A stretch of DNA of 52,585 nt from a candidate division WOR-1 bacterium RIFOXYB2_FULL_37_13 (lineage in GTDB: Bacteria > Margulisbacteria > WOR-1 > XYC2-FULL-46-14 > XYC2-FULL-37-10). The stretch's first letter is position 1. Each line of letters opens with the position of its first letter. Below, piece after piece: positions 18,927 through 30,891 of the stretch. Position numbers and translations under genes: made by a program. The notes below the pieces were generated by a model. That model did not search any database, was not told the origin of the DNA, and worked only from the letters and a program-made list of their open reading frames with translations. The stretch is taken from positions 1-52,585 of the forward strand of contig MEUB01000014.1 of assembly GCA_001771535.1 (NCBI GenBank). Direction: 5' to 3'.

Positions 18927-18946
18927 TATGAGTTGAGGTGCTAAAA

Positions 18947-19180
18947 ATGTATATGAAAGCTTCTGATTTTAAGGCAAAATGTTTGGAATTGATGGATAAG
19001 GTTCATGATTATCATGAAGAGATAATAATTACAAAGCACGGTAAGCCAGTGGCTAGGTTGGTGTCGGCACAAGCTGAACCCAAAAAGTCTATTTTTGGAT
19101 TTATGAAAGATTTGGCAAAAATAAAAGGGGATATAATAGCTCCAATAGACACAAAATGGGATGCTGAAAAAGATGAATGA
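18947..19180 (+). CDS. Phd/YefM-type antitoxin
   Basis: 77 aa. MKASDFKAKCLELMDKVHDYHEEIIITKHGKPVARL is the classical Phd/YefM DNA-binding N-terminus (AxxFKxxC, then ITKHGKPVA). The C-terminus (PKKSIFGFMKDLAKIKGDIIAPIDTKWDAE) would wrap the toxin. Start ATG 18947 with GAGGTG seven bases upstream. The toxin gene begins inside the last codons (ATGAATGA), the standard coupling. It should neutralise the PIN toxin and repress this operon. Confidence 0.9.
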   Translation: MYMKASDFKAKCLELMDKVHDYHEEIIITKHGKPVARLVSAQAEPKKSIFGFMKDLAKIKGDIIAPIDTKWDAEKDE

Positions 19181-19598
19181 AAATATTGTAGTATTAGATA
19201 CTCATATATGGATTTGGCTCTTAATTGGCGATGAAAAGATAAAAGAGTGTGGGTTTTTGCCTTATATAAATAAAGCTGTAAAAGAATATAATGTAAAAAT
19301 TCCGGCAATTTCTCTTTGGGAAGTTTCGATGCTTGTAGCAAAAAATCGTATAGTATTATCGAAAAACACTTTAGAGTGGCTTACTGATGCTGTTTCGGCT
19401 CCGGGTTTAACTGTTTATCCAATTACCCCTGAAGTTGCCTATGAAAGCGCTTGTCTGCCAGAAAATTTTCACGGAGATCCTGCCGATCGATTGATTGTCG
19501 CAACTGCAAGAGCATTAAATGGAACCTTATTGACTTTTGATAAAAAGATTTTGGAGTATGGCGCAAAAGGTCATATTAAGACAATTATACCAAGTTAA
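19173..19598 (+). CDS. PIN-domain toxin (VapC type)
   Basis: 141 aa. The PIN acidic site is complete: D9 in VVLDTHIWIW, E50 in ISLWEVSML, D102 and D105 in GDPADRLIVATA, plus D123 near TFDKKIL. Such proteins cut RNA, often tRNA or rRNA, in a metal-dependent way. Start at ATG 19173 overlaps the antitoxin stop at 19180. Being paired with a Phd rather than VapB antitoxin is common for this PIN subgroup. The pair opens the accessory island after lipA. Confidence 0.9.
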   Translation: MNENIVVLDTHIWIWLLIGDEKIKECGFLPYINKAVKEYNVKIPAISLWEVSMLVAKNRIVLSKNTLEWLTDAVSAPGLTVYPITPEVAYESACLPENFHGDPADRLIVATARALNGTLLTFDKKILEYGAKGHIKTIIPS

Positions 19599-19632: not shown

Positions 19633-19710
19633 TTATCTTTTCTTCTTTTTTTGAAATGTTATCACAGCCTGACTACCGCTTCCTATTGAACCTACACCTG
19701 ATATTGACAT
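19633..19710 (-). CDS. Predicted 25-aa peptide with strong Shine-Dalgarno
   Basis: A short leftward frame, MSISGVGSIGSGSQAVITFQ followed by five basic residues, starts at ATG 19710 with AGGAGGAAT just upstream. A Gly/Ser-rich front and a Lys/Arg tail. It occupies the position that unknown leftward genes hold in the two neighbouring poly-C cassettes. It could be a real small peptide or the surviving first codons of a lost gene. Its 5' flank carries a fragment of a dispersed repeat (AATTTCCAATGTC, also near 50890). Confidence 0.4.
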   Translation of the reverse strand: MSISGVGSIGSGSQAVITFQKKKKR

Positions 19711-19782
19711 AATTATTCCTCCTATTTTTTTTATTTCATCCCATTCCCAATTTGACATTGGAAATTAGACATTACTCTTAGT

Positions 19783-19815
19783 TATCGCCCCCCCCAAGAA
19801 AATTTCAGGTGATTT
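19783..19815. repeat. Poly-C cassette element, copy 1 (C8)
   Basis: TATCG then eight C (19788-19795), AA, then GAAAATTTCAGGTGATTTT. It lies between the 25-aa reading frame (leftward) and the broken AAA gene (rightward), a few bases upstream of the rightward -35. Confidence 0.85.
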
Positions 19816-19821
19816 TGATTC

Positions 19822-19850
19822 TTGGCTAATTTGCAGTAGTACTATAAAAT
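19822..19850 (+). promoter_or_regulatory. Promoter of the AAA pseudogene
   Basis: TTGGCT (19822-19827), 17 bases, TAAAAT (19845-19850). The ATG is at 19857, six bases on. Confidence 0.45.
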
Positions 19851-19856
19851 AGTCAT

Positions 19857-20231
19857 ATGTATAGAAGGCGTGTGGCAGAAGAGATTGTGTTAAAACTTTC
19901 AAAAAATTTTCCTATCATATTATTAACAGAACCAAGACAGGTCGGAAAAACTACTCTATTTGAACACCTTAGTGAAAAACAAAGCCATGCATATGTCTCT
20001 CTTGATGAATTCGAGTTTCGCTCTCTGGCCAAAAGCGATCCGTCTTTGTTTTTGGAAAAATACCCTCCACCTATTATCATTGATAAAATACAATATGCTC
20101 CGCAACTTTTGCCTTATATAAAAACATATATAGACAGAGATCCAAGAGATCTTGTTAGGGTTGGGTCTTTGTCAAGTTTTGAAAAATTCCTTATACTGTC
20201 GCAAGTCTGTTTTAATTATCTTGATATTTAG
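19857..20231 (+). pseudogene. Broken AAA ATPase (DUF4143 family) gene
   Basis: 124 codons open to a TAG. It starts like an intact family member, but the Walker A reads EPRQVGKTT with E25 where Gly is required. The Walker B reads IIIDKIQYAP with K77 in place of the catalytic Glu; the codon is AAA where GAA is expected. After YIDRDPRDLV the text jumps to SLSSFEKFLIL, which in intact relatives lies far downstream, so an internal deletion of many codons is inferred. The frame then ends where the next cassette begins, its stop overlapping the stop of the convergent gene. The product cannot be an active ATPase. It keeps a promoter and poly-C element like those of the two cassettes to its right. Confidence 0.75.
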
Positions 20232-21028
20232 TCATCTATATTTCCAGTTAAGCTGACAGGAACCCCCTCCTTAGATTGTCCCTTTTGAATTGCCAAATGC
20301 CAACGAGGGGTAAGAACCGAGATACGATCAGCCTCATGCGGAGCCTCAATACTAAAGGTTAATGTATAATCTATTTTTTTTAAAAAAACCTCAAGCGTTA
20401 AGGTGGAAAGTCCCTCTTTATCAAAATTTTCAACAAAGCTTTTAGACAGTGCAAGAAATGAATTTATGTTATCCAAAAGCACTTCCCCATATTGCAACGA
20501 AATAGGCATTAAATTTATTATATTATCTCTAGCATTCCTTAATGCGTCTGATGATGGGTATGAGTCAATATCGTTCTGCTTATAAACTCCATTTTGCCTT
20601 GCAAACAAATGAAGAAGATGAGGATCGGTTTTTCTTACTCCATAAGGTGTTTCATATATTCTCTGTTCAACTCCAGCATAGTCTTCATCTTCACCTCTGC
20701 GTAAAGGTTCAAGTCCAATTTTCCCAAGATCCTGAACAACACTTGATGTCTTTGTCTTTCCATACCCCATCTCCGAATCAAAAGAATAACGGTCAGGATA
20801 AAAAACTCTGGAAATGAAAATCCTTTTGCCAGTCCCTTCAACAAACTTAAGCCCTAAAGCGTTAAGGGATAAATGACCCTTTTCTTGCCTACGAAAATCG
20901 TCTGCTAAAAAAGAGCTCCTTAATGTTTCAGCTGCGTAATAACCCGCGCATCCTTTAAACTTTAAAACTTTAACTTTTGAAAACTCCTTAACAATCTTTG
21001 TCCCTCCACCGATTCTATCAATAACCAT
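20228..21028 (-). CDS. Unknown leftward gene of poly-C cassette B
   Basis: 266 aa from ATG 21028, chosen over a GTG three codons earlier because AGAGGTG lies eight bases upstream. Basic N-terminus (IDRIGGGTKIVKEFSKVKVLKFKG), then mixed text with FVEGTGKRIFISRVFYPDRYSF, a YGVRKTDPHLLHLFARQNGVY segment and a strand-rich end (TLTLEVFLKKIDYTLTFSIEAP). No recognised domain, signal or membrane helix. It diverges from the AbiE pair across the poly-C element and converges on the AAA pseudogene with overlapping stops. Confidence 0.55.
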   Translation of the reverse strand: MVIDRIGGGTKIVKEFSKVKVLKFKGCAGYYAAETLRSSFLADDFRRQEKGHLSLNALGLKFVEGTGKRIFISRVFYPDRYSFDSEMGYGKTKTSSVVQDLGKIGLEPLRRGEDEDYAGVEQRIYETPYGVRKTDPHLLHLFARQNGVYKQNDIDSYPSSDALRNARDNIINLMPISLQYGEVLLDNINSFLALSKSFVENFDKEGLSTLTLEVFLKKIDYTLTFSIEAPHEADRISVLTPRWHLAIQKGQSKEGVPVSLTGNIDD

Positions 21029-21049
21029 ATCAAACACCTCTTACTCTAT

Positions 21050-21085
21050 TATCGCCCCCCCCCACGAAAATTTCAGGTGATTTTT
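21050..21085. repeat. Poly-C cassette element, copy 2 (C9)
   Basis: TATCG, nine C (21055-21063), AC, then GAAAATTTCAGGTGATTTT, identical to copy 1 in this block. It lies 22 bases upstream of the 21028 start and 13 bases before the -35 of the AbiE promoter. Confidence 0.9.
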
Positions 21086-21097
21086 GAAATTTTGTGC

Positions 21098-21126
21098 TTG
21101 ACGAATATTTAACGACAATATACAAT
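21098..21126 (+). promoter_or_regulatory. Promoter of the AbiE-type pair
   Basis: TTGACG (21098-21103), 17 bases, TACAAT (21121-21126). Confidence 0.75.
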
Positions 21127-21152
21127 GGAAGTGTGAGAAAATAGAACTTCCA
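21125..21152. promoter_or_regulatory. Inverted repeat over the AbiE transcription start
   Basis: TGGAAGT (21125-21131) and ACTTCCA (21146-21152) are perfect 7-bp arms, 14 bases apart, covering the predicted +1. AbiEi antitoxins are known to bind inverted repeats in their own promoter, so this is the natural operator candidate. Confidence 0.55.
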
Positions 21153-21161
21153 TCAAACATT

Positions 21162-21734
21162 ATGGATAATTTGATTGCTAAGTTATATCAAACTCAAAAG
21201 ACAGTCTTAACAAGTAAGGATATTGCTTTAATTTGGGGAGAAATAAGCCAAACGAAACTTAAAGCCAAAATAGCTTATTATGTCAATCGAAAAGCTCTAA
21301 TTCGTTTGACTCGAGGTGTTTTTGCTAAAGACAAAAACTATGCGCCAAGAGAATTGGCAACTAGCCTTTATCTGCCGTCTTATATCAGCTTTGAAACCGC
21401 CCTTCGAGATTCCGGCATTATTTTTCAGCATTATGATACTATTTTTGTTGCCGGTAAATGGCCAAAAACCATGAAAATAGATGGGCATATTATTACATTT
21501 AGAAGGCTAAAGGATGAACTTTTATTTAACCCCGTTGGCATAATATTTAAAGATAATTATAATATTGCTGGACTTGAACGCGCTTTTTTGGATATGATTT
21601 ATTTGTTCCCAGAATATTATTTTGATAATCTTTCTTCTTTAAATTGGGAAAAATGTTTTGAGATGGTTCCAATGTATAAAAACAAACAAATGACGGAGCG
21701 ATTGGTTAAATATCATAAAAATTATGTTAAATAG
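21162..21734 (+). CDS. AbiEi-type antitoxin/transcriptional regulator
   Basis: 190 aa. N-terminal winged helix (TVLTSKDIALIWGEISQTKLKAKIAYYVNRKALIRLTRGVFAK), then the family segment ELATSLYLPSYISFETALRDSGII, and YNIAGLERAFLDMIYLFP. This is the layout of type IV AbiEi antitoxins, which repress the operon and oppose the toxin without binding it. Predicted +1 is around 21133, giving a leader of about 29 bases. The toxin gene starts 11 bases before this stop. Confidence 0.85.
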   Translation: MDNLIAKLYQTQKTVLTSKDIALIWGEISQTKLKAKIAYYVNRKALIRLTRGVFAKDKNYAPRELATSLYLPSYISFETALRDSGIIFQHYDTIFVAGKWPKTMKIDGHIITFRRLKDELLFNPVGIIFKDNYNIAGLERAFLDMIYLFPEYYFDNLSSLNWEKCFEMVPMYKNKQMTERLVKYHKNYVK

Positions 21735-22437
21735 AGAAAAACATCAATTGATAATGGGTCAAATTCTTCGAGATATTTATACTGATACCACAATATCTCC
21801 GCTCTTAGGATTTAAAGGCGGAACCTGTGCCTATTTTTTTTATGATTTGCCAAGATTTTCGGTTGGTCTTGATTTCGACCTGCTTTCAAATCTTTCCGCA
21901 GATGAGCAGGAAGCTGTTCTTGAAAAAATAATTGCCATACTTCGCAAATATGGGGAAATTAAGGACAGTAAGGTGAAACGATTTACCATATTTATTTTGC
22001 TTTCATACGGCGACGAAGATCATAATATTAAAATAGAAATTTCTACGCGAACATTCATTTCAGATATTAAGAACTATTACGAATTAAAAAAATATCTTGG
22101 AATTCCAATGCTTGCAGGCAAAAAAGAGTATCTCTTTTCAGGGAAACTATCGGCTTTAGCGCTTCGAACGGAGACTGCCATGAGAGATGTTTATGATATT
22201 TACTATTTTGCCAAGAATAATTGGGATATCGATAGGGAACTTGTCGAGCTCATGGTAAAAAATAAATTTTCAAAGCATTTAACGGCTTGCATAAATTTAG
22301 TCGAATCTATTAAAGATAATAGGATACTTCATGGGCTTGGAGAGCTTATCAGTGAAAAAGAAAAAACTTGGATTAGACAACATTTAAGGAAAGAAGTCAT
22401 TTTCTATTTAAAAAATTATCGTGCGATTGTAAAATAG
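21724..22437 (+). CDS. AbiEii/AbiGii-type nucleotidyltransferase toxin, with a changed catalytic site
   Basis: 237 aa. Family members transfer nucleotides onto tRNA and arrest growth during phage infection. The G-G-T of the nucleotidyltransferase fold is present (GFKGGT, 31-34), followed by LPRFSVGLDFDLL. Relatives have Asp where this protein has G48 (RFSxDLDF); codon GGT replaces GAT. D50 and D52 remain and could form a shifted D-x-D. C-terminal landmarks (LSALALRTETAMRDVYDIYYFAKN) are intact. It overlaps the antitoxin gene by 11 bases. The gene is otherwise full length, so either a weakened toxin or an unusual site is possible. Confidence 0.85.
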   Translation: MLNREKHQLIMGQILRDIYTDTTISPLLGFKGGTCAYFFYDLPRFSVGLDFDLLSNLSADEQEAVLEKIIAILRKYGEIKDSKVKRFTIFILLSYGDEDHNIKIEISTRTFISDIKNYYELKKYLGIPMLAGKKEYLFSGKLSALALRTETAMRDVYDIYYFAKNNWDIDRELVELMVKNKFSKHLTACINLVESIKDNRILHGLGELISEKEKTWIRQHLRKEVIFYLKNYRAIVK

Positions 22438-22449
22438 CTTATTCCAACC

Positions 22450-22480
22450 AATAAGCCCGCCAGAATCTGACGGTCTTATT
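22450..22480 (+). terminator. Terminator after the AbiE-type pair
   Basis: AATAAG-CCG-CAG and CTG-CGG-CTTATT arms with two mismatches, then a T-rich tail. The core AGCCCGCCAGAATC also occurs in the hairpin at 24731. Confidence 0.65.
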
Positions 22481-23003
22481 ATTCTTTATCTTGCTCAGGG
22501 ATCAGGGCTATGAGGCCTTCTGCAACAGCTCCCGACATGTGTCTCGAGAATCTCGAAAATGCCACGATTATGGCAACAGCTAACTCCTTGTTTGGGGGGA
22601 CATTCTTGCCAAGGAACTCCACAGCTTCTGCGAGGATGTTATCGTCGACTAGTGCTTCTTCCACAATTCCTAAACATAGTTTTACGCCATCTGCTTTTTC
22701 CATGCCTTCCAAAAGGCGAGTCAACATCCAGGGATGAAGATTGCGGATTAGCCCAATAATAGCGGTTTTTATTGAAGAATCTGTTTTCAATATTTGAAAG
22801 AAGCCTTTATCATCCGATCTTAGCAATTGTGCAAGTACAGAGAGTTTGAAATCTTTGTCAGTATGAAGCCTAACCGTATTAAGAAGAACACTCAATTTCA
22901 CAGCGGGGGTTAGATGGGCAAGATGATTCCCGTTAATAAATTCGTTATAACTCATCCTAAAAATTGATTGTCCTGCCCTTGCTGTTGCCGGTATTCTTTT
23001 CAC
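22479..23003 (-). CDS. Unknown leftward gene of poly-C cassette C, helical repeat-like
   Basis: 174 aa from GTG 23003, with AAGGAG ten bases upstream. A longer open frame to 23132 would translate the poly-C tract as glycines and is rejected. The protein is all-helical with regularly spaced helices (LAHLTPAVKLSVLLNTVRL, FKLSVLAQLLRSD, IKTAIIGLIRNL, VEEALVDDNILAEAVEFLG), like a HEAT-type or other alpha-solenoid. A decayed copy of its C-terminal end lies at 24787-24880. It is divergent from the AAA-nuclease gene. Function is unknown. Confidence 0.55.
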   Translation of the reverse strand: MKRIPATARAGQSIFRMSYNEFINGNHLAHLTPAVKLSVLLNTVRLHTDKDFKLSVLAQLLRSDDKGFFQILKTDSSIKTAIIGLIRNLHPWMLTRLLEGMEKADGVKLCLGIVEEALVDDNILAEAVEFLGKNVPPNKELAVAIIVAFSRFSRHMSGAVAEGLIALIPEQDKE

Positions 23004-23027
23004 ACAAATCACTCTCCTTAGGTATAT

Positions 23028-23066
23028 ATCGCCCCCCCCCCCTGCAGAAATTTCAGATGATTTTCT
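23028..23066. repeat. Poly-C cassette element, copy 3 (C11)
   Basis: TATCG, eleven C (23032-23042), TGCA, then GAAATTTCAGATGATTTT, with a few changes from copies 1 and 2. It ends two bases before the -35 of the AAA-nuclease promoter and lies 24 bases upstream of the leftward GTG. Confidence 0.85.
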
Positions 23067-23067
23067 C

Positions 23068-23096
23068 TTGACATGGTTTTTTGTATAGCGTACAAT
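23068..23096 (+). promoter_or_regulatory. Promoter of the AAA-nuclease gene
   Basis: TTGACA (23068-23073), 17 bases, TACAAT (23091-23096): the best -35 in the island. Confidence 0.8.
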
Positions 23097-23144: not shown

Positions 23145-24707
23145 ATGTTTTTTGAATCTTCAAAGCCTGTTACCGGGAAATATTTCTTTGACAGAGACAA
23201 AGAGCTTGAAGAACTTCTTTCCGCTATTCCAAGGATTGAAAAGGGAGCTACAACTTATATTGCCCTTTTAGGCCACAGGAAAGTCGGCAAAACAAGCCTT
23301 TTGCAAAAGTTCTTGGAAGAAGCCTCGGGCAGAGTCCTCACTGTTAAAATTGATTGCTGGGAAAAAGAAAATCTTTCATTGGAATTTTTTCAGTCTTATC
23401 TTGTCAAAGTAATTGATGCTGTTCTTATTAACCTAGAAATTCCGCTATCTATTGAAGCAGCTCTTTTAAACAAAGAAAAAACATTAAAAGCATTGGTTGA
23501 TATAAAGAATTTAAAAATCAAAGCTTTGGAACCTGGGATTGATGCTCTGATAAGTATTTCTGAAGGGAGATATAATTCAAGCGTTATATCAAGCATAATA
23601 GACTTGCCCGAGAAGCTTGCCATTGAATTGAAAACTTATTTTTTTGTAGTAATCGATGAATTCCAGGAGATTGAAAACTTAAATAAGTTTAAAGATGTAA
23701 AAAATAATATTGGGAATATGTATTCTTTTTTGCGCACAAAATGGCAGGCGCACAAAAGAGTTAATTATTTTGTTGCAGGCTCTAAAATTACCTTAATGAA
23801 AACGATCTTAACTCGTAAAAACTCTCCATTTTTTCAGCACTTTAAGATTATTGAAATAAGATGTTTTCCTGAAAATGAAGCAAAAAAAATGCTCAAAATC
23901 GTTTCATCAAAAATAAAGAAAGAGATTCCTAGTGATTTAATTTTGAAGATTATAGATATATTCGGAACAAACCCATTTTATCTTCAGATAGTAGGAGAAG
24001 AGCTTTGCAGGAATGATCTTATCGATGAAGATGCTCTAAAAATTACTGTGCAGGAAATTCTTTTTAATAGGTCTGGAAGGCTTTATCTTTATTTTGAAGA
24101 TATGCTTGGAAAATATATAGGAAATTCAGCTTCTTTAGAAAACAGCCTGATCGCTATTGCAAAACAAGAAGGAACATTGACTCAAAAAGCTAAAGAATTG
24201 GGAATAACAACAGGAGCTTTAAAAACATGGTTAAAGCGAGTTCCTGATCTAATAGAACAAACTTCTGATATTTATAAAATAAAAGATCAAGCGTTAGGTT
24301 TGTGGCTTAAAAACAGATCTGATTTAAGCCAAACAATTCCTACAACTGTATTGGGGAATGAAGCTGAAAAATTGGTTGCAAAAGTTCTTTCGGAAATAGG
24401 GTTTCAACTGATTTATCAGTCTCAAGCAAGTCGAGGAGCCTTTGATCTGCTTGGAATAATTACAACGCAAAAGATAGGGATTCAAGTTAAGAAAGGAAAA
24501 TTTCCTTTTTATATTAAAGCAAAGGAAATAAATGAAATGAAATTCTGGGCAAAAGAGTTATCATGGAAGCCTGTGCTAGCTGTTGTTTTTTACGATAAAT
24601 GCTTCTTTTATGATGCCGAGAAATTAAAGCAACATGGGGCGCATTTTAAAGTGGAAGAAAAAACGCCATACATAAAGAATATGCTGAAATTTGCGATTGA
24701 TAGATGA
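23145..24707 (+). CDS. AAA ATPase fused to a PD-(D/E)xK-like nuclease domain
   Basis: 520 aa. An archaeal-type AAA domain occupies about residues 10-300: FFDRDKELEELL, Walker A GHRKVGKTS (43-51), Walker B YFFVVIDEFQEIEN near 165-178, sensor-like FVAGSK. A helical and winged-helix middle follows (LTQKAKELGITTGALKTWLKRVP). The C-terminal 120 residues begin GNEAEKLVAKVLSEIGF and carry RGAFDLLGI and IGIQVKKGK. That E...D...QxK order matches restriction-endonuclease-like folds of the Mrr/Hjc kind. It has a strong promoter, an operator-like repeat and a GGGAGGAG Shine-Dalgarno. A nucleic-acid defence role is inferred; the fusion itself is plain in the sequence. Confidence 0.75.
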   Translation: MFFESSKPVTGKYFFDRDKELEELLSAIPRIEKGATTYIALLGHRKVGKTSLLQKFLEEASGRVLTVKIDCWEKENLSLEFFQSYLVKVIDAVLINLEIPLSIEAALLNKEKTLKALVDIKNLKIKALEPGIDALISISEGRYNSSVISSIIDLPEKLAIELKTYFFVVIDEFQEIENLNKFKDVKNNIGNMYSFLRTKWQAHKRVNYFVAGSKITLMKTILTRKNSPFFQHFKIIEIRCFPENEAKKMLKIVSSKIKKEIPSDLILKIIDIFGTNPFYLQIVGEELCRNDLIDEDALKITVQEILFNRSGRLYLYFEDMLGKYIGNSASLENSLIAIAKQEGTLTQKAKELGITTGALKTWLKRVPDLIEQTSDIYKIKDQALGLWLKNRSDLSQTIPTTVLGNEAEKLVAKVLSEIGFQLIYQSQASRGAFDLLGIITTQKIGIQVKKGKFPFYIKAKEINEMKFWAKELSWKPVLAVVFYDKCFFYDAEKLKQHGAHFKVEEKTPYIKNMLKFAIDR

Positions 24708-24730
24708 TTTATTTGTTCTAACCAAAAGTC

Positions 24731-24761
24731 AAAAAGCCCGCCAGAATCACAGCGGGCTTTT
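24731..24761 (+). terminator. Terminator after the AAA-nuclease gene
   Basis: AAAAGCCCGC and GCGGGCTTTT are near-perfect arms ending in a T run, 24 bases past the stop. Its left half matches the terminator at 22450. Confidence 0.85.
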
Positions 24762-24786
24762 GTGAAAGAGCCATTTTTTTCTTACT

Positions 24787-24890
24787 AAGGAATCAGGGCT
24801 ATGATGCTATTTGCCCAATCACGACAAAATACTCTGATTGCATCAATAGCTAACTCCCTGCTTGGTTTTGCCAAGGAACCCATCAGAAAG
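24787..24890 (-). pseudogene. Remnant of a second copy of the 22479-type gene
   Basis: Read leftward it gives SRELAIDAIRVFCRD and IIALIP before a TAG, matching KELAVAIIVAFSRF and LIALIPEQ at the end of the 22479 gene. At DNA level GGAATCAGGGCTATGA and AGCTAACTCC are shared. A frame change near FLGK shows it is not functional. The rest of the gene is missing; the next 60 bases lead into the 24954 gene. Confidence 0.65.
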
Positions 24891-24953
24891 ATTGAAATTT
24901 CTTTAAATTATTGTTGATACTAAAAAAACATTCCAGCAAGAAAGGGGAAAGTC

Positions 24954-26423
24954 ATGACACAATTACTGGTACAAAGCCATATCCCTCCTTCGCCCGTTTT
25001 ATCTAGTATAATTAGAATTGCCGAGGCTGTCAGTTATGGGAACAGAGTTAATCGCCTATCCGGAGGTTTACAAGGAGAAAAAGATATTGGAGTTTTTTGG
25101 GGAGCAGAAAAATTTACTTCCAAAACCGGAGAAGCAAAAACCCTTGAAATATATAACCTTATTAACCCCAGCAAAGAGATGGTCAAAAGATTAACCTCTC
25201 TTTGGAAATTGACATGGAAACTTGGAATCCCAGAAGAGGGAAAGGTTGATAGGCTTGTTATAGATCAATTAGAAAAAAGCCTTCTTGTTAACGATCAGCA
25301 GATGTCTTTGATGTTAAAAAACGCGAATGATACTATTTTAGTTGCTAGGGATTTGGAAACAGGAGAAATTGTTGCTGCCATTTGGGGAGTTCCTTATAAT
25401 GTCGGAGAAAATGGCTTTATTCCCCATACTTATGACGCCATGACCAATCAAAAGACCTTTTGCTATTCTATGTTTGACGGCAATTTAAAATCGTGTATTT
25501 CTGTTGTCGTCCATCCCGATTACAATGGATTAAAAGATTCCGTTGAAAATAGTGTAGGAGAATGGGTTAGAAATCAAGCTGCCATTGCTACTTTACGACA
25601 TCCCAGAGAATACAAGGTTATCGCGTATTCAAGGCCGAGCTCTTTAAAGTTTTTTACTGAGCTTGTTTTGTGGTTGAGGCAGGAACATGGCTATGTGGTT
25701 TGTTATAGTGAGGAAAAAGAAAAATGGGTTGCCAAAAAAGATGGAATAATGCATGAGATCAAGATAAGCCCAAAAGGGATAGAAATAGAAGGGCTGTTAT
25801 ATCGGCATAAGGATATTAACAGTTCAGTTGAAATTATCCCGACGTTAGATGGTTATACGGTTGGTCGAAATGGCAAACGAGTTATAACTGACTATATTGG
25901 CGTGCGTCTAGAGGGAGAAACGGACTATCTTGTGCCGATAAGGCCTTATTTAGAAAAGGCGAATTTTGACCAGATGATAAGGTTTCATGGTGGAGGGGAG
26001 CTTGGCGGGCGGGGAGGGGGTAAGCTTATAAATATTTTTTTAAACGGGAAAAGGGATCCAATCTCTTTGGATTACAACATTGTTTTTGAATTTCCTCTTT
26101 TGGAGTTAATGGATAAGAAGCTGTTTTCTGATGTTTATTTATTGTGTACGGAAGCACAACAAGATTTTTTAAGGAAAGCTGTGTTATATCCTGACAGCTT
26201 AAGACATGAATTAAGAAGAAAACCTCTTCATTCTAAAGTGTTATTGCATGGGGCTTTTAGCTTTGAAAAGATAAATATGTTCTGGCTCCCTTTTATAAGA
26301 AAGCATAGATCAATGTTGGATGATTTTTTTGGAGAAATATCAGTTTCAATAAAAACAGAGGCGCAGGCAACAGAGTTATATAAACAATTGATTGATTTGG
26401 CTGACATCAATCGAGAGTTGTAA
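24954..26423 (+). CDS. Unknown 489-aa protein with a possible GNAT-like central domain
   Basis: 489 aa, cytosolic. Start fixed by AAGGGGAAAG upstream of ATG 24954. Residues 60-230 show an acyltransferase-like pattern: NPSKEMVKRLTSLWKLTW, then a strand ILVARDLETGEIVAAIWGVP, and after it SCISVVVHPDYNGLKDSVENS followed by a helix. A motif VHPxYNGxG-like at this point is where GNAT enzymes bind acetyl-CoA, but the R/QxxGxG is not clear. The last 200 residues (including HGGGELGGRGGGKL) match nothing I know. It converges on the efflux operon with a six-base gap. The GNAT reading is tentative. Confidence 0.4.
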   Translation: MTQLLVQSHIPPSPVLSSIIRIAEAVSYGNRVNRLSGGLQGEKDIGVFWGAEKFTSKTGEAKTLEIYNLINPSKEMVKRLTSLWKLTWKLGIPEEGKVDRLVIDQLEKSLLVNDQQMSLMLKNANDTILVARDLETGEIVAAIWGVPYNVGENGFIPHTYDAMTNQKTFCYSMFDGNLKSCISVVVHPDYNGLKDSVENSVGEWVRNQAAIATLRHPREYKVIAYSRPSSLKFFTELVLWLRQEHGYVVCYSEEKEKWVAKKDGIMHEIKISPKGIEIEGLLYRHKDINSSVEIIPTLDGYTVGRNGKRVITDYIGVRLEGETDYLVPIRPYLEKANFDQMIRFHGGGELGGRGGGKLINIFLNGKRDPISLDYNIVFEFPLLELMDKKLFSDVYLLCTEAQQDFLRKAVLYPDSLRHELRRKPLHSKVLLHGAFSFEKINMFWLPFIRKHRSMLDDFFGEISVSIKTEAQATELYKQLIDLADINREL

Positions 26424-30834: not shown

Positions 30835-30891
30835 GTTTGCAATTTTTATTTTGTTTTTTCGATATATTATATGAGAAAGGCGGAAATAAAC

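Follow-up and report, generated by a model that had tools for sequence, protein, structure and literature searches.

What is the poly-C block that recurs three times between neighbouring genes in the genome of the candidate division WOR-1 bacterium RIFOXYB2_FULL_37_13, and which genes does it serve? We analysed positions 1 to 52,585 of contig MEUB01000014.1 (the window). The blocks at 19783, 21050 and 23027 read TATCG followed by C8, C9 and C11, respectively. Directly after each C-run stands (G)AAAATTTCAGGTGATTTT, which is exact in copies 1 and 2 and carries three mismatches in copy 3. With up to three mismatches allowed, this 19-mer is expected 0.17 times per window by chance; it was found three times, a number reached in no shuffle. 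The original prediction, made from the letters of the window, had described the three copies (with the third at 23028, off by one), the conserved block behind the C-run, an AAA or toxin gene to the right of each copy and a leftward gene of unknown function close to copies 2 and 3. All of these are present: a rightward AAA or AbiE gene lies downstream of every copy, and leftward open reading frames (ORFs) start at 21028 and 23003, with ribosome binding sites (RBS) that begin near TATCG. Our answer, to which we give a probability of about 0.7, is that the blocks belong to a multi-locus set of slippage-tuned, sigma-28-like promoters that drive orphan genes.

The promoter motif and its 14-nt spacing

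Sought elsewhere in the genome and in its relatives, as had been proposed, the block reappeared as a fourth poly-C copy and as many copies that carry an A or T run or no run. The fourth copy (C8; contig C17, position 43953) came from a list of all 43 C-runs of at least 7 nt in the genome, the surroundings of which were read. An unknown leftward ORF flanks it on one side and a rightward AbiEi/AbiEii pair on the other. Just past it are two more cassettes, in each of which an AbiEi/AbiEii-like pair is set against a leftward unknown ORF and the same block occurs, with C5 (degenerate) and with T12. The whole region (L096:10493-18732) holds three such pairs in series and in one orientation, each of which has its own element and faces a divergent orphan ORF; the family-library scan covered the first pair only. 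An 18-mer without the run, used as a query, recovered further copies with T9 to T15 and others that are run-free. The exact poly-C block pattern had no match in genome-contig and viral-contig collections, and the pattern TGAAATTTCA9-N{0,7}-CGATAA had none in the genome-contig collection, which may omit near-identical genomes.

When the copies were aligned on the leftward strand, a common form emerged, AAAATCAnCTGAAATTT - spacer - CGATAA. The spacer may hold various homopolymers, of which poly-C is one; in most copies elsewhere the run is poly-A. The copy 1 promoter (19782-19807, minus strand) has a -35 box TGAAATTT at 19807-19800 and a -10 box CGATAA at 19787-19782, separated by a 12-nt spacer that includes G8 (C8 on the plus strand, 19788-19795). 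Copy 2 (21049-21075, minus strand) has the same two boxes and a 13-nt spacer including G9. Copy 3 (23026-23055, minus strand) has TGAAATTT, a 16-nt spacer including G11, and CGATAT.

The pattern TGAAATTT-N{9,18}-CGAWAA was searched in this genome and in eight relatives of the same family and order, with the reversed pattern as control. It gave 28 matches in the genome itself (control 5) and 12 to 70 in the relatives (control 0 to 5). In the relative G004, the spacer was exactly 14 nt in all 32 matches, the spacer sequences were unrelated to each other and the reversed control gave 0; 14 nt was also the commonest spacer in G001, G003 and G008. A motif with a constant 14-nt spacing and unrelated spacer sequences behaves as a sigma-dependent promoter. 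Judged from its sequence, each block is a leftward promoter of the form TGAAATTT-spacer-CGATAA, with a predicted working spacer of 14 nt. A palindromic-operator reading of the block was dropped when this spacing rule emerged. The conserved motif supports the shared regulator that had been suggested for the blocks, and its recurrence across the genome supports the idea of a genome-wide set. Most of the leftward genes have an RBS, and their starts lie about 15 to 85 nt from the -10 box. Behind the 14-nt promoters of several relatives' genes (L134, L135, L136, L138 and others), a possible start codon stands 4 to 9 nt past the -10 box, and leaderless or near-leaderless transcripts may therefore be common.

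Only three sigma-70-family proteins (PF04542) were found in the genome: RpoD and two proteins whose best NCBIfam model is FliA_WhiG (TIGR02479). The first of these two (E 9e-42) lies between flgI and flgC. The second (E 2e-24; G000:C44:13914, L182) is a protein of 196 aa beside large unknown ORFs, and several relatives have sigma frames of about that size. The published sigma-28 consensus is TAAAGTTT-n11-GCCGATAA (PMC2859248), a spacing of 13 nt by the measure used here. The element shares 6 of the 8 bases of its -35 box, matches it fully in CGATAA and has a spacing equivalent to n12. Given this resemblance, the sigma factor that recognizes the promoter is most likely of the sigma-28 (FliA/WhiG) class, either FliA or the second FliA-like protein; the 196-aa protein is a candidate for the dedicated sigma of the regulon. 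We call the promoter sigma-28-like, and not a FliA promoter, because both proteins score below the curated cut-off of the model.

Homopolymer runs within the spacer

The lengths of the spacers were compared in a sample of 575 kb (32%) of the genome, in stretches partly picked for containing matches. An exact -35 box and a -10 box beginning with CG, with at most one mismatch, were required. Among ordinary spacers, 14 of 19 had a length (D) of 14 nt. The 13 homopolymer spacers were spread over D=11 (one), 12 (five), 13 (three), 14 (two), 15 (one) and 16 (one), and the two classes differed (Fisher p=0.003). The homopolymer, which is G8 to G11, A7 to A15 or, once, T8, lies between the -35 and -10 boxes. 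In the sample, every one of the eight A/T runs of at least 10 nt is inside an element spacer, and four of the eight G/C runs of at least 8 nt are inside an element. An order-4 Markov model would give 51 to 62 such A/T runs, about seven times the 8 observed. Homopolymers are concentrated in the spacer, and the spacers that hold them are mostly off 14 nt. The slippage-prone tracts of the original prediction are supported.

Four A-run promoters were found in the sister genus G002, and two pairs of promoters are orthologous between the genomes. One pair has A13 in our genome (C30:581) and A11 in G002 (C9:16953); the other has A11 (C11:41194) and A8 (G002 C28), the latter with a TGATAA box. These differences at orthologous sites indicate that tract length changes between lineages. 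In another family of the order, a poly-G version (G006 C36:22405; G7, D=11) precedes a 272-aa orphan gene.

Slipped-strand mispairing is known to change the length of homopolymers, and the distance between the -35 and -10 boxes controls promoter strength. In the mechanism that we propose, a one-base run has taken over the 14-nt spacer in a subset of promoters. Slipped-strand mispairing would lengthen or shorten this run and would thereby move the two boxes into or out of their working distance of 14 nt, raising or lowering the transcription of the downstream orphan gene. The set of orphan genes is probably switched up and down in this way, through about a dozen run-bearing copies, and we infer that the switching is reversible and under selection. 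Since their spacers are 12, 13 and 16 nt long, window copies 1, 2 and 3 should be weak promoters, or off, in the form recorded by the assembly consensus.

Several points weigh against this proposal. D=14 is already present in two homopolymer copies, and some ordinary spacers other than 14 nt may be chance matches. The tract lengths are those of an assembled draft genome. The choice of stretches by their matches may have inflated the element count, although not the absence of long A/T runs elsewhere. As for the sigma factor, the two FliA/WhiG-like proteins score 143 and 87 bits, under the curated TIGR02479 cut-off of 189.6, and, compared with the sigma-28 consensus, the spacing is off by 1 nt and two of the eight -35 bases differ. 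Among the genes examined behind the motif, not one belongs to the flagellar or chemotaxis systems; in this survey not all targets were read and flagellin was not located.

The homopolymers might instead be static, acting as bendable A-tracts, as UP-element-like DNA for a divergent sigma-70 promoter or as fixed sub-optimal spacers, with no reversible switching. At several loci the T-run abuts a rightward TTGAAA -35 box that is followed by N17 and a TATAAT-like -10 box, so that the tract could serve the rightward promoter. However, the run may be G or A, which are unlike in their effect on DNA shape, and its length differs at the orthologous sites of the two genera. In addition, homopolymer spacers vary by several nucleotides whereas ordinary ones keep to 14, and long A/T runs are strongly depleted in the rest of the genome. 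We consider static tuning unlikely.

Genes on either side of the element

The orthologous pairs also bear on the genes behind the promoters. Between our C30 and G002 C9, homology covers the promoter together with the divergent gene and stops where CGATAA stops; the downstream gene is replaced. Between our C11 and G002 C28, homology over the corresponding parts breaks off within the -10 box or immediately ahead of it, and another gene follows. Homology that ends at the promoter, with a different gene beyond, indicates that the downstream gene has been exchanged there. The gene behind the A8 promoter of G002 C28 (L184:1285-2280) encodes a 331-aa protein with a Sigma70_r2 match; our C11:41194 has an orphan in its place. 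Near the A11 promoter of G002 C9 (L208:3079-3954), ORFs of 90 and 197 aa resemble, by eye, a STAS-like protein and an anti-sigma-type ATPase.

Such breaks would also be expected if the element were kept mainly as a joint for cassette exchange, with divergent orphan and toxin-antitoxin units swapped by recombination at the promoter. Units are stacked in one orientation (C14, C17 and G002 C9), and remnants are found nearby. On the other hand, isolated copies share just about 40 nt and many copies are solitary. Neither a recombinase nor inverted ends nor an attC-like fold came to light, although no search was made for attC-like sites or an integrase. Promoter function accounts for the boxes and the 14-nt rule without recombination. 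A role mainly as a joint therefore appears quite improbable to us, while exchange at the element is compatible with the promoter explanation and the two are not mutually exclusive.

The genes that the window promoters are predicted to drive are orphans. The copy 2 gene (20228-21028, minus strand) encodes 266 aa from an ATG at 21028, with the RBS AGAGGTG. The protein has no match in Pfam or NCBIfam and, among the 74 genomes of the phylum that were searched, is confined to its own; its AlphaFold model is unusable (pLDDT 31). For the 174-aa product of the copy 3 gene (22479-23003, minus strand), a low-confidence, all-helical repeat model was obtained (pLDDT 68), which had no match in the PDB at E<=0.001. 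A decayed remnant of this gene, in two pieces with about 71% DNA identity, lies just past the AAA-nuclease gene at 24730-24879, and suggests duplication and decay of a cassette. Behind copy 1, at 19640-19740 (minus strand, limits approximate), a good RBS, AGGAGG, and a 25-codon ORF (MSISGVGSIGSGSQAVITFQKKKKR) are what is left of a truncated or decayed orphan gene. Two probable run-free members of the family lie on the plus strand. One (24893-24920) reads TGAAATTT-N14-TGATAC, with two mismatches in the -10 box, and a 489-aa orphan gene begins 33 nt past it at 24954. The other (30838-30865) reads TGCAATTT-N14-CGATAT, and an orphan ORF (415 aa from this start) begins 5 nt past it.

None of the 13 homopolymer-driven proteins scanned (11 from this genome and 2 from G002) had a Pfam match at E<=0.01. 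Of the ordinary-spacer targets scanned, two are TPR proteins and one is glycosyltransferase-like; seven others were without a match. No mutual homology among the leftward proteins was evident by eye. A separate sample of 21 downstream proteins, mostly from relatives, was only aligned. The N-termini of the orphan proteins were mildly enriched in S/T/N/G/P and in R (p 0.004 and 0.0004, uncorrected, with 1 of the 21 entries mis-framed). This composition is a weak hint, and not a finding, that the orphan proteins are possibly secreted, and they might act as effectors.

To the right of copy 1 lies a truncated AAA_14 ATPase gene (19857-20231, plus strand; PADLOC candidate PDC-S01, covering the first ~100 of ~420 positions), which is shortened to 124 aa. 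At its stop it overlaps the end of the copy 2 orphan gene, an arrangement that looks like the insertion of one cassette into another. A pair of genes for a Phd-type antitoxin and a PIN-domain toxin (18938-19598) is found just upstream of copy 1. The divergent neighbour of copy 2 is a type IV toxin-antitoxin pair on the plus strand, AbiEi (21162-21734; PADLOC E 3e-56) and AbiEii (21724-22437; E 1e-64), adjacent to each other as in AbiE systems. It is preceded by a sigma-70-like promoter, TTGACG-N17-TACAAT (21098-21126, plus strand), outside the conserved block. To the right of copy 3, a similar promoter, TTGACA-N17-TACAAT (23068-23096, plus strand), also outside the block, precedes the gene of an AAA ATPase (ATPase_2/AAA_16; 23145-24707, plus strand) with a weak C-terminal match to Hjc-like nucleases. 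Toxin-antitoxin and ATPase neighbours occur at many loci (AbiE four times, AAA_14, the AAA protein with the Hjc-like end, a Polbeta nucleotidyltransferase and HATPase_c_3), and a rightward neighbour in G002 is a DUF6036/AbiEii-like gene.

The original prediction had taken these rightward genes for co-regulated, possibly phase-variable defence cassettes under a shared regulator. The four poly-C copies do face AAA_14, AbiE, AAA-nuclease and AbiE genes, and elsewhere the nucleotidyltransferase, the HATPase and more AbiE genes stand on the right. However, the conserved boxes and the spacing rule are on the leftward strand, where they would drive the orphans. At copies 2 and 3 the rightward -35 and -10 boxes are outside the block, and housekeeping genes (leuD-like, glycine dehydrogenase or epimerase) stand in the divergent position at other homopolymer copies. 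Judging by sequence, the genes for AbiE and AAA proteins lie divergently beside the element, have sigma-70-like promoters of their own and are not its targets, and we regard the defence reading as very unlikely. That the block is a dispersed repeat without regulatory role, for example the end of a mobile element, is hardly credible: about 40 nt are common to the loci and several copies are clustered, but the motif occurs in 8 of 8 relatives searched, and its mostly 14-nt spacing with unrelated spacers fits a promoter and not a repeat.

Known systems and significance

Phase-variable promoters have been described in Neisseria, where a homopolymer between the -35 and -10 boxes of porA, opc and fetA is thought to alter sigma binding (PMC2791445). 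As in those genes, the run lies in the promoter spacer and its length sets the distance between the boxes. The elements described here differ in having a sigma-28-like promoter, a 14-nt rule and a run of A, G or T. Moreover, about a dozen loci share the design within a third of the genome, where they precede orphans and not known surface proteins, and the switching is predicted from sequence. In Haemophilus influenzae, a TA repeat lies in the shared divergent promoter of the fimbrial genes hifA and hifB. That repeat, too, is within a divergent promoter region, but its unit is different, and in the window the rightward -35 and -10 boxes are outside the tract.

The FliA/WhiG (sigma-28) regulons resemble our set in the CGATAA -10 box, a related -35 box, near-identical spacing and the two FliA/WhiG-like sigmas of the genome. 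They differ from it in that our -35 box is TGAAATTT, our spacing exceeds theirs by 1 nt, homopolymer spacers occur in some copies and no flagellar target was seen among the genes examined. The type IV toxin-antitoxin system AbiE is not part of the element; AbiEi/AbiEii pairs neighbour several copies and have separate promoters. No described system of this form was found in a limited search of the literature. The principle of spacer switching is known from Neisseria, and its use across an orphan-gene regulon looks new.

A broader picture may be drawn, which we offer tentatively and think somewhat doubtful as a whole. The regulon of a flagellar-class sigma would consist of orphan proteins, possibly secreted. 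Within one family, a homopolymer in place of the 14-nt spacer would have turned many of the sigma's promoters into contingency loci, with genes swapped at the promoter and each cell expressing a different random subset.

Phase-variable promoter spacers are known at single surface-protein genes of pathogens. Here, in an uncultured lineage, they would operate across a set of genes that share an alternative-sigma-type promoter. From the 14-nt rule that the ordinary members follow, it can be predicted directly which copies are on and which are off. The results also suggest that the order as a whole contains a large class of orphan genes served by one common type of promoter.

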